A stretch of DNA of 64,000 nucleotides. It comes from Variovorax terrae (lineage in GTDB: Bacteria; Pseudomonadota; Gammaproteobacteria; Burkholderiales; Burkholderiaceae_C). Below, one piece after another: positions 41,493-44,151 of this stretch. The notes below the pieces were generated by a model, which did not search any database, was not told the origin of the DNA, and saw nothing but the letters and a program-made list of their open reading frames with translations. Positions within the stretch are counted from its first letter, which is position 1. The number at the start of each line of letters is the position of its first letter. The stretch covers positions 2,852,001 through 2,916,000 of the forward strand of contig NZ_JALGBI010000001.1 of assembly GCF_022809125.1 (NCBI RefSeq), read 5' to 3'. The translations under genes and the position numbers were made by a program.

Positions 41493-41560
41493 ATTTTTCA
41501 GATCAAAACGCCTCCAGGTCCAGGTGGCGCGGTCATTTCTAGCTATCAAAAAAAGAGCAA
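41493..41560 (+). repeat. Interspersed repeat copy C between leuD and leuB
   Basis: ATTTTTCAGATC..., core GGTCCAGGTGGCGCGGTCATTT and end GCTATCAAAAAAAGAGCAA. It fills the leuD-leuB gap and its final AAAGAG lies 4-9 bp before the leuB ATG, acting as the only plausible ribosome binding site. Confidence 0.75.
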
Positions 41561-41562
41561 CC

Positions 41563-42633
41563 ATGAAAATCGCAGTTCTTCCCGGTGACGGCATCGGCAC
41601 CGAAATCGTGGCCGAGGCCGTCAAGGTCCTCAAGGCGCTGGGCCTCTCCTTCGAGATGGAAAGCGCATTGGTCGGCGGCGCCGCCTACGAGGCCCACGGC
41701 CATCCGCTGCCCGAGTTCACCCTCAAGCTGGCCCAGGCCGCCGACGCCGTGCTGTTCGGCGCCGTCGGCGACTGGAAATACGACAAGCTCGACCGCCCGC
41801 TGCGCCCCGAGCAGGCCATCCTGGGCCTGCGCAAGCACCTGGGCCTGTTCGCCAACTTCCGCCCCGCGATCTGCTACGAGCAGCTGGTGGGCGCCTCCAG
41901 CCTCAAGCCCGAACTCGTGGCCGGGCTGGACATCCTGATCATCCGCGAGCTGACCGGCGACATCTACTTCGGCCAGCCGCGCGGCCGCCGCACGGCGGTG
42001 GACGGCCACTTCCCCGGCGCCGAGGAAGCCTTCGACACCATGCGCTACTCGCGCCCCGAGATCGAGCGCATCGCGCGCGTCGCCTTCGAGGCGGCCCGCA
42101 AGCGCAGCAAGAAGGTCACCAGCGTGGACAAGGCCAACGTGCTCGAAACCTTCCAGTTCTGGAAGGACGTGGTCACCGAGGTCGGCAAGGAGTACCCCGA
42201 CGTCGCGCTCGACCACATGTACGTGGACAACGCCGCCATGCAGCTCGTGAAGGCGCCCAAGAAGTTCGACGTGGTGGTCACCGGCAACATGTTCGGCGAC
42301 ATCCTCTCGGACGAGGCCTCCATGCTCACCGGCTCCATCGGCATGCTGCCCTCGGCCAGCCTGAACGACAAGAAGCAGGGCCTGTACGAGCCCAGCCATG
42401 GCAGCGCGCCCGACATCGCCGGCAAGGGCGTGGCCAACCCGCTGGCCACCATCCTCAGCGCCGCGATGATGCTGCGCTTCAGCCTGAACCAGGAAGAAGC
42501 CGCCGCCCGCATCGAGACCGCCGTGCAGAAGGTGCTGGCCCAAGGCCTGCGCACCCCCGACATTTACAGCGAAGGCACCACCCAGGTGGGCACAGCGCAG
42601 ATGGGGGATGCGGTGGTGAAGGCGCTGGGGTGA
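41563..42633 (+). CDS. leuB: 3-isopropylmalate dehydrogenase
   Basis: A 356-residue Leu[17 protein letters not shown] at the N-terminus, substrate Arg in [23 protein letters not shown] near 125, and [14 protein letters not shown] near 245 with the metal Asp. Oxidises and decarboxylates 3-isopropylmalate in leucine synthesis. The longer frame from 41524 runs through repeat sequence; the ATG at 41563 gives the conserved start. Confidence 0.97.
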
Positions 42634-42667
42634 TGCCGGCGGCGCTGCAAAGCGCCGCCTCGGCAGG

Positions 42668-42696
42668 AAAAAAGCAGTCCGCGGGGCTGCTTTTTT
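42668..42696 (+). terminator. Intrinsic terminator after leuB
   Basis: Symmetrical stem AAAAAAGCAG / CTGCTTTTTT around a GC-rich loop, with six T at the end, 35 bp past leuB. The A-tract could make it bidirectional. Between it and 42804 nothing was recognised. Confidence 0.88.
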
Positions 42697-42804
42697 CATG
42701 GGGCGTTTCATGCCAGGGTGACTGCGGACGGCCGGCACGCTCGGTCCGCGGGACGCCTTGCTGGCGGCCTTCTTCCGCGCAAACCCCGGCAAACCCGCAT
42801 CCGC

Positions 42805-42810
42805 TACAAT
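42805..42810 (+). promoter_or_regulatory. -10 box TACAAT of the asd leader transcript
   Basis: TACAAT lies 8 bp before the leader ATG; transcription would begin about 42816-42819, at or next to the ATG, giving a leaderless message. The -35 region is poor. Confidence 0.5.
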
Positions 42811-42818
42811 ATCCGCCT

Positions 42819-42920
42819 ATGTTTGCCGCCCGCCCGTTCGCCCCGAACACCGCCGCTGCCCCTTTGGCAGGCGTGGCCGCGCGCGCAACCATCACCAAAA
42901 CCACGACCATTAAGGGCTGA
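42819..42920 (+). CDS. Candidate leader peptide of asd
   Basis: A 33-codon [13 protein letters not shown] at the start and [10 protein letters not shown] at the end. Residues 24-32 contain five Thr, two Ile and two Lys in nine positions. Thr, Ile and Lys are made from aspartate semialdehyde, the product of the next gene asd, so this is the composition expected of an attenuator leader (compare E. coli thrL). There is no Shine-Dalgarno, but the predicted transcript start is at the ATG. The stop lies 4 nt before a 12-bp hairpin. It is too short for family matching; support is composition and context. Confidence 0.6.
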
Positions 42921-42924
42921 TCCA

Positions 42925-42991
42925 GCCTGGTTCGTCGTGCGCCCCTCCTGGCCAGACGAGCCAGGCGAGCAGTCCGGTCGGATACTGTTTT
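42925..42991 (+). promoter_or_regulatory. Candidate attenuator hairpins upstream of asd
   Basis: Arm GCCTGGTTCGTC (42925-42936) pairs with GACGAGCCAGGC (42955-42966): 12 pairs with one G-U. A competing stem CCTGGC (42947-42952) / GCCAGG (42960-42965) uses the same 3' arm, so the two exclude each other. A weaker stem CAGTCC / GG-AT-ACTG (42970-42987) is followed by four T. A ribosome near the leader stop would mask the first arm. Confidence 0.55.
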
Positions 42992-43011
42992 CACATCGAA
43001 AGGGCGTTGAA

Positions 43012-44151
43012 ATGAGCAAGTTGGTAGGGTTGGTCGGCTGGCGCGGCATGGTCGGCTCGGTGTTGATGGACCGCATGCAGGCGGAAGGCGACTTCGGCCT
43101 GATCGAGCCGGTGTTCTTCTCCACCTCCAATGCTGGCGGCAAGGCCCCGGCGCAGGCCAGGAACGAAACCACGCTCAAGGACGCCTACGACGTCGACGCG
43201 CTCAGGAAGTGCGACATCGTCATCACGGCCCAGGGCGGCGACTACACCACCGAAGTCTTCCCCAAGCTGCGCGCCGCCGGCTGGAACGGCCACTGGATCG
43301 ACGCGGCCTCCACGCTGCGCATGAAGGACGACGCCGTCATCGTGCTCGACCCGGTCAACCTGCCCGTGATCCAGAAGGCGCTGAAGGACGGCGGCCGCAA
43401 CTGGATCGGCGGCAACTGCACCGTGAGCTGCATGCTCATGGGCGTGGGCGCGCTCTACAAGGCCGGCCTGGTCGAGTGGATGAGCACCCAGACCTACCAA
43501 GCTGCCAGCGGCGGCGGCGCCCAGCACATGCGCGAGCTGCTCACGCAGTACGGCACGCTGAACGCCGAGGTCCGGTCCCTGCTGGACGACCCCAAGAGCG
43601 CCATTCTCGAAATCGACCGCAAGGTGATCGCCAAGCAGCGCGCCCTCTCTGCCGCCGAAACCGCCAACTTCGGCGTGCCGCTGGGCGGCAGCCTGATCCC
43701 CTGGATCGACAAGGACCTGGGCAACGGCATGTCCAAGGAAGAATGGAAGGGCATGGCCGAGACCAACAAGATCCTCGGCTTTGGCGAAGGCTTCGGCAAG
43801 AACTCGCCGCAGGCGGTGCCGGTGGACGGCTTCTGCGTGCGCGTGGGCGCCATGCGCTGCCACAGCCAGGCCCTCACCTTCAAGCTGAAGAAGGACGTGC
43901 CGGTGGCCGACATCGAGGCCATGATCGCGGCCGACAACGCCTGGGTGCAGGTCGTGCCCAACACCAAGGAAGCCACGCTCAAGGACCTGACGCCCGTGGC
44001 CGTGACCGGCACCATGACGATCCCGGTGGGCCGCATCCGCAAGCTGGCCATGGGCCCCGAGTACGTCGGCGCCTTCACCATCGGCGACCAGTTGCTCTGG
44101 GGTGCCGCCGAACCGCTGCGCCGCATGCTGCGCATCCTGCTCGACGCCTGA
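43012..44151 (+). CDS. asd: Aspartate-semialdehyde dehydrogenase
   Basis: A 379-residue Asd of the E. coli type. NADP motif [10 protein letters not shown] near residue 9, catalytic Cys in GGNCTVSCM near 138, His in CHSQALT near 286. It makes aspartate semialdehyde, the branch point for Lys, Thr, Met and Ile. AAAGGG precedes the ATG at 43012; earlier frame to 42718 overlaps the leader in another phase. Confidence 0.97.

Follow-up and report, generated by a model that had tools for sequence, protein, structure and literature searches.

The enzyme encoded by asd, aspartate-semialdehyde dehydrogenase, stands at the branch point leading to lysine, threonine, methionine and isoleucine. Just ahead of this gene in Variovorax terrae lies a short open reading frame (ORF) that ends in a run of threonine, isoleucine and lysine (T/I/K) codons, and the question that the locus raises is whether a ribosome translating this frame could decide whether asd is expressed and, if so, at what level the decision would be taken. 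The analysis covers a stretch of 64,000 nucleotides (the window, to which all coordinates refer), in which NCBIfam models give the gene order leuC, leuD, leuB, asd, fimV; by our reading, ORFs beyond fimV look truA-like and trpF-like. The genes and the terminator-like site that frame the leader are as follows.

41560..42633, plus strand: leuB, 3-isopropylmalate dehydrogenase, here without a T/I/K tail (TIGR00169, 504.6 bits against a cutoff of 353.2)
42668..42696, plus strand: terminator-like hairpin AAAAAAGCAG/CTGCTTTTTT on the 3' side of leuB (from sequence; scan with loops up to 12)
43012..44151, plus strand: asd, aspartate-semialdehyde dehydrogenase, the putatively regulated gene (TIGR01745, 592.5 bits against a cutoff of 402.9)

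The hairpin after leuB suggests that in this genome asd is probably a transcription unit of its own, apart from the leu operon. A scan of 42500-43100 for consensus promoters and terminators with loops up to 8 found nothing and missed this hairpin because of its loop limit; the region was therefore rescanned with loops up to 12. Of the named loci that were fetched, Paracidovorax wautersii has the asd closest to that of the window (92% identity), and the other best relatives belong mostly to Comamonadaceae and neighbouring Burkholderiales.

The leader itself consists of three features.

42805..42810, plus strand: -10 box TACAAT, 8 nt before the leader ATG, without a -35 consensus (from sequence)
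42819..42920, plus strand: leader peptide ORF of 33 amino acids, probably leaderless (from sequence and comparison with relatives)
42888..42914, plus strand: putative regulatory codons TITKTTTIK (from sequence; a T/I/K run precedes asd in 74 of 81 loci)

The frame comprises 33 codons and a TGA stop, and the nine residues ahead of its final glycine are five Thr, two Ile and two Lys. A sequence-only reading of this DNA had singled out the 33-codon ORF for its Thr/Ile/Lys-rich end, and the sequence bears this out beyond chance: across its six reading frames the window contains 1507 stop-proximal 9-mers, and only that of the leader has at least six T/I/K residues (it has eight, the next best five).

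Relatives carry the same kind of tail ahead of asd. A scan with asd in which each GTDB species was represented by one genome gave at least 595 confirmed relatives; the best 80 of them and the window make up 81 loci, in each of which the call went to the peptide with the most T/I/K/M in its last nine residues, with a threshold of five and a stop 50-180 nt before asd. By this rule 50 loci have a stand-alone leader, in 24 the tail is the C-terminus of LeuB (the LeuB-tail form), and 7 have neither; pathway codons near the leader stop, as in an attenuator of the thr/trp type, are thus found in 74 loci. Over tail residues -2 to -10 of these 74, 310 of 666 are T, 148 K and 126 I, and residues -32 to -12 of the stand-alone leaders hold 6.3% T, 2.0% I and 1.0% K. 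The final leader codon is GGC or AGC in 71 of the 74, which fits its placement inside a hairpin over the stop codon (hairpin 0, below). Some tails also contain methionine codons (TTKTMTMKD, TTTMTKTIKG and ATMTKTIKG, in L062 and in L193, L224, L226 and L228), and a fourth amino acid of the aspartate family may therefore be sensed there.

Because the call rule picks the best tail, an independent test was needed. A covariance model was built from 44 picked sequences over 58 positions of the RNA around and after the stop codon; the ORF contributed no more than its final two codons. At E up to 0.001 the model has a match in 196 of 250 genomes from the window's family, one each except for a single genome with two (197 in all). 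Ninety of these matches were inspected, 30 fetched by search and 60 weaker ones by hand, in genomes some of which may share a species with the loci that built the model: all 90 lie before asd and behind a T/I/K run (at least five of nine residues, stop 40-200 nt before asd), 52 of them in stand-alone leaders, the window among them, and 38 in LeuB tails. Twenty of the 54 genomes without a match were looked at; 18 have asd, 16 with its start in view, and among these 16 the tail is absent in 13 and a weak LeuB tail is present in 3 (L240, L242, L244). An order-wide draw of 399 genomes gave 12 matches, all from the window's family. Conservation of the ORF and stems among relatives, set beforehand as a test of the sequence-only reading, thus held, and its central proposal of a leader peptide bearing Thr/Ile/Lys codons before asd is backed by the comparison. 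That a regulatory leader exists before asd is, in our judgement, very highly probable, and that it senses Thr, Ile and Lys scarcely less so.

The position of the -10 box bears on how the leader is translated. In the first set of loci a -10-like hexamer, mostly TACAAT, lies 4-9 nt ahead of the start codon in all 50 stand-alone leaders, and in the second set 6-11 nt ahead in 50 of 51, the choice of start codon having itself been guided by the box; no -35 consensus was seen in the stand-alone leaders. As a control, a box with at least five of six consensus positions at 5-9 nt distance precedes 2 of the 868 ATGs on the plus strand of the window, and the window leader is expected among these. A -10 box so close to the start codon points to an mRNA that starts at the leader ATG or nearly so, and the stand-alone leaders are probably leaderless; the TACAAT at 42805-42810 thereby lends indirect support to the transcript start at or near the ATG that had been suggested from the sequence. 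Between leuB and the leader, a terminator-like site (loops up to 12) occurs in 8 of the 24 stand-alone loci with a visible leuB end. In six loci (L013, L045, L046, L057, L063 and L075) the leader promoter overlaps the end of leuB, the leuB stop lying between the -35 position and the -10 box, and this arrangement is possibly a halfway form between a stand-alone leader and a LeuB tail.

In a third to two fifths of the loci that bear the element (24 of 74; 38 of 90), the sensor codons are the C-terminus of LeuB, with ends such as ...MGDAVVAAITKTTIKG, ...AITKTITKG, ...AITGKTITKS, ...AIVKTITKKS, ...LKATTTMTKTIKG and ...VQSGTAAGATSTTKTTKTIKS. The order and length of the residues vary among tails and their content much less so, as would be expected if the amino acids themselves are selected. 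These tails are part of the full-length LeuB ORF (five were read through), which raises the alternative that in such species the extension serves the LeuB protein, its stability or localisation for example, rather than the regulation of asd. Judged on LeuB genes that lie ahead of asd, we consider this very improbable. In the 24 stand-alone loci where the end of leuB is visible, the enzyme has no tail; matches of the RNA model by themselves led to 38 LeuB tails; tails and stand-alone leaders are made up of the same residues; and the alignment of a tailed LeuB of 362 residues with the best-matching solved LeuB sequence runs to residue 355, where the solved sequence ends. Among the 81 loci and the inspected model matches, none was seen to combine a LeuB tail with a separate leader. 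Two further LeuB ends, ...ALRGKALTRS in L238 and ...AITGKTIPSTRR in L245, have no model match and are possible decaying tails.

On an asd protein tree of 137 rows (FastTree, with 54 of 132 inner branches open), the LeuB-tail label requires 13 changes, at least five of which are forced by well-supported branches, and these repeated changes indicate that the stand-alone and LeuB-tail forms have interchanged repeatedly. We think it likely that in many members of the family leuB ends in some 7 to 20 codons that act as Thr/Ile/Lys sensors for asd through a conserved RNA switch, a form that has interchanged several times with a stand-alone leaderless leader with its own promoter, and that asd is thus tied to aminoacyl-tRNA supply across the family, with a related arrangement in part of Burkholderiaceae.

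The latter statement concerns the family coded f32 in the source, which gives codes only and which we take to be Burkholderiaceae. Of 30 f32 loci, 17 clearly show a T/I/K-rich leader, at 81-89 nt before asd, in 1 the leader is weak, 11 have none and 1 is unreadable; in L086, also of this family, ATTIKTITKTIP lies 90 nt before asd. Leaders such as ITTKTTITKTITIR are found in L111-L115, L117-L127, L133 and L086, with a TG-preceded -10 box just before the ATG in all but L133: 17 of the 18 clear leaders have TATATT, TAGACT or TACACT (four or five of six positions) 6-8 nt before the ATG. Past the stop codon, CGTCGTGC is shared in several f32 leaders, the whole scheme is not, and the RNA there differs from that of the window's family. 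Folds of 12 f32 leaders gave no common scheme, and so only a similar leader is claimed there; it may plausibly have a common origin with the leaders of the window's family.

What the ribosome could act upon is the RNA between the last sensor codons and asd, which in the window contains the following elements.

42914..42928, plus strand: stop-codon hairpin 0 (42914-42919/42923-42928), 6 bp over the final Gly codon and the stop
42925..42936, plus strand: 5' arm of stem I, the putative anti-sequestor (from sequence and pair counts)
42939..42944, plus strand: putative anti-Shine-Dalgarno GCGCCC, in the loop of stem I and free beside hairpin II (from the fold with the ribosome at the stop)
42947..42965, plus strand: hairpin II (42947-42952/42960-42965), whose 3' arm is common with stem I (from pair counts)
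42955..42966, plus strand: 3' arm of stem I (from sequence and pair counts)
42970..42991, plus strand: weak hairpin III (42970-42973/42984-42987) with TTTT (42988-42991), not a convincing terminator (from sequence)
43002..43007, plus strand: asd Shine-Dalgarno region GGGCGT, predicted partner of GCGCCC (from the fold)

Pair counts over 94 distinct sequences favour both of the competing structures. Stem I (12 bp) has 87.3% of its cells paired and 18 changed on both sides (shuffle mean 6.8, 0 of 500 as high), a pair count that leans its way as the alignment was fitted to stem I. Hairpin II has 95.7% of cells paired and 15 changed on both sides, and hairpin 0 has 81.9% paired, with at least one cell changed on both sides in four of its six pairs; together hairpins 0 and II have 88.8% of cells paired and 22 changed on both sides (shuffle mean 10.8, none as high), and slid controls give 23-57% paired. 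Two other counts are weaker: pairs with double changes are about as numerous in stem I as in shuffles (238 of 500 reach its number; 29 of 500 for the hairpins), and further pair types are few in stem I (499 of 500 as high; 55 of 500 for the hairpins). The structure shuffles ignore relatedness, and these results are read as indications. The sequence-only reading had described the 12-bp stem 42925-42936/42955-42966 and the competing 6-bp stem 42947-42952/42960-42965; both are present, and prediction backs them as mutually exclusive folds. The stop-codon hairpin, the GCGCCC/GGGCGT pairing, the leuB terminator and the LeuB-tail form had no part in it. Two further pairings were noticed among the relatives: arm 3 of L021, L026, L027, L029 and L033 can form 7 bp with a GTCTGGC further downstream that is shortly followed by a T-rich stretch, which resembles a classical 3:4 hairpin, and in the LeuB-tail loci L004, L036, L048, L066 and L077 the GGACCCC that precedes hairpin II has another possible partner in GGGGTCC downstream, which suggests a further alternative helix in this group.

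An RNA core so well conserved might also be a leader that binds a protein or a ligand, in the manner of a riboswitch, with the ORF incidental. This is the least probable of the explanations weighed here, a shade less likely even than a tail serving LeuB: Rfam has no match in the whole window at the gathering score and none for 42780-43060 at E up to 5, the amino-acid content of the tail is conserved, and the predicted switch follows the position of the ribosome. A search of phage records gave no match.

We hypothesize instead, with a probability of about 0.62, a ribosome-controlled attenuator of asd that would act mainly on translation initiation and be switched on when ribosomes stall at the Thr/Ile/Lys codons. 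Computation supports the conservation of the peptide tail, the RNA element, the -10 box and the gene context, as well as the alternative folds; we infer that the leader is translated, that ribosomes stall in it, and that regulation runs in the direction and at the level described here. On a probably leaderless mRNA, translation of the leader would begin immediately. When Thr, Ile and Lys are in good supply, the ribosome would reach the stop codon and cover the start of arm 1, so that hairpin II forms, and the freed GCGCCC would pair with the asd Shine-Dalgarno region and turn asd off. If any of the aminoacyl-tRNAs for Thr, Ile or Lys were scarce, the ribosome would stall in TITKTTTIK, leaving arm 1 free; stem I would then form first and block both hairpin II and the sequestering helix, and asd would be on. 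In the LeuB-tail form the sensor would be the final codons of leuB, presumably within an mRNA that also carries the leu genes.

To follow the predicted folds along this path, the RNA downstream of the ribosome, whose edge was set 12 nt beyond the first A-site base, was folded at 73 loci (50 stand-alone and 23 LeuB-tail, L076 being left out). With six bases of asd included, stem I in the stand-alone loci averages 0.86 with the ribosome on the last Thr codon or on Ile and 0.81 on the last Lys, then drops to 0.39 on Gly and to 0.04 at the stop, and the Shine-Dalgarno helix averages 0.14, 0.19, 0.61 and 0.96 at the same positions; in the window, stem I falls from 1.00 to 0.00 and the helix rises from 0.00 to 1.00 between the last Lys and the stop. 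The helix gains more than 0.3 in 45 of 50 stand-alone loci and in only 8 of 23 LeuB-tail loci, in which the equilibrium fold favours hairpin II throughout and stem I exceeds 0.5 with a stalled ribosome in 6 of 23. Since the LeuB-tail fold is thus mostly off even when the ribosome stalls, an on state there would have to be kinetic. RNA left free from 18 nt before the end of the stop codon folds into hairpins 0 and II in the LeuB-tail loci (0.85 and 0.88), which would be the off fold, and mostly into stem I in the stand-alone loci (0.85).

The sharpness of the predicted switch depends on how much of asd is folded. Fifteen asd bases give much the same result at the stop as six. With 30, stem I in the stand-alone loci goes from 0.92 on Lys to 0.30 at the stop and the helix from 0.08 to 0.57, and in the window stem I is kept at the stop (0.98) and at +12 (0.95), the switch occurring only at +15 (0.06); the helix exceeds 0.5 at the stop in 48 of 50 stand-alone and 19 of 23 LeuB-tail loci with six bases, and in 28 of 50 and 15 of 23 with 30. 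Folding only RNA upstream of the asd start gives stem I in 50 of 50 stand-alone and 23 of 23 LeuB-tail loci when the ribosome is on Ile; with the ribosome at the stop the stem persists in 44 and 15 of these, and at +12 it remains in only 6 and 1. Given this persistence at the stop, the off state can form only if the Shine-Dalgarno strand takes part or if the ribosome covers slightly more RNA. As a prediction, then, the position of the ribosome sets alternative folds clearly in stand-alone loci and weakly in LeuB-tail loci. By comparison and prediction, this placement of the folds agrees with the proposal that arm 1 is covered by a ribosome at the stop codon but left exposed by one that has stalled.

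Evidence on the predicted output is mixed. The longest contiguous pairing of anti-Shine-Dalgarno and Shine-Dalgarno averages 6.09 bp against 4.39 in shuffles over 101 stand-alone loci, and 5.15 against 4.42 over 61 LeuB-tail loci; 5% of the shuffles at most are as long in 34 of the 101 and 9 of the 61. Partners are exchanged with the helix kept (GCGCCC/GGGCGT, ACGCCC/GGGCGT, TCGCCC/GGGCGA, and GCCT/AGGC in L078), and the duplex with a locus's own site beats shuffled sites in 50 of 52. Own and permuted duplexes differ little (-11.86 against -11.60; 371 of 5000 permutations as good, not significant), and for 15 of the 52 (two groups, TCTCGCCC and TCGCGCCC, together with two single sequences) the own site is a poorer partner than the sites of other loci. 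Mean accessibility of the Shine-Dalgarno region changes from 0.44 to 0.27 in stand-alone and from 0.33 to 0.36 in LeuB-tail loci; changes as large occur in 3 of 200 shuffles for the window, 30 for L018 and 32 for L052, and in 196 for L034, where the direction is opposite. This mean is a poor measure, as the site pairs locally in the on state. Given these mixed duplex, permutation and accessibility results, we favour Shine-Dalgarno sequestration as the main output by a modest degree only; it is better supported in stand-alone than in LeuB-tail loci.

The same leader logic would serve classical transcription attenuation of the thr/trp type, in which the off state ends transcription through hairpin III, through a hairpin of arm 3 with a T-rich stretch, or through Rho acting where the RNA is left untranslated. 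Such a mechanism would gain from the 7-bp pairing of arm 3 with a downstream segment in some stand-alone loci and from a Shine-Dalgarno helix that is not firmly supported in every locus, and a lenient scan (loops up to 12) places a terminator-like hairpin past the leader stop and ahead of asd in 15 of the 50 stand-alone and 2 of the 24 LeuB-tail loci. By the same scan, however, 57 of the 74 loci have no terminator between leader and asd; in several of the candidates the T-rich stretch starts a few nucleotides after the stem or the stem is A/T-rich; and the window has no intrinsic terminator by either scan (loops up to 8 or up to 12). The weak stem followed by TTTT at 42970-42991, which the sequence-only reading had pointed out, is there, but is not a convincing terminator. 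We regard transcription attenuation as unlikely, if far less so than a protein-serving tail or a riboswitch-like leader. The earlier idea of an attenuator of asd stands as regards the leader and the exclusive folds; as its output, sequestration of the asd Shine-Dalgarno region is better supported than a terminator.

In the open-licence PMC literature, as represented by titles and the opening parts of abstracts, we found no asd attenuator, no LeuB-tail sensor and no enzyme C-terminus serving as a leader, and the main text of PMC2965389 does not mention asd. If true, the reading of the asd leader as a ribosome-controlled attenuator describes a system that integrates three end products at a branch point on a leaderless start, and one that is probably translational rather than dependent on an intrinsic terminator. 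The LeuB-tail form, if true, means that sensor codons can be appended to an enzyme gene and that a regulatory leader can do without a small ORF of its own; searches for attenuators that are limited to short ORFs or to terminators would miss such leaders, and the two forms offer a testable case of attenuators moving between genes.

Among known systems, the thr operon attenuator of enterobacteria comprises the thrL leader, with pathway codons near its stop, and alternative hairpins. The asd leader is like it in having a short leader with pathway codons by the stop and alternative hairpins between which the position of the ribosome would decide; it differs in standing before asd alone, in adding Lys codons, in having no clear intrinsic terminator in the window and no Rfam match, in the predicted sequestration of a Shine-Dalgarno region, and in probably being leaderless. 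In translational attenuators of the erm type, a stall in the leader frees the ribosome-binding site of the next gene, and the cue is an antibiotic. The same release is predicted for asd, but the cue would be amino-acid supply, and in the on state the RNA would form a stem in competition with the sequestering fold. Ribosome-mediated transcription attenuators are treated as a general class in PMC1183508 (in the part available). One of them, trpL of Sinorhizobium meliloti, has an RNA that starts at the leader ATG, as is predicted for the asd leader, and is a transcription attenuator of trpE(G) (PMC7298713, in the part available). In translational coupling, ribosomes on an upstream gene alter the fold at the next start, which a review likens to attenuation (PMC12548453, in the part available); the LeuB-tail form of the asd leader differs in that the end of the enzyme gene carries amino-acid-specific codons and in that termination there is predicted to repress the next gene, not to promote it.
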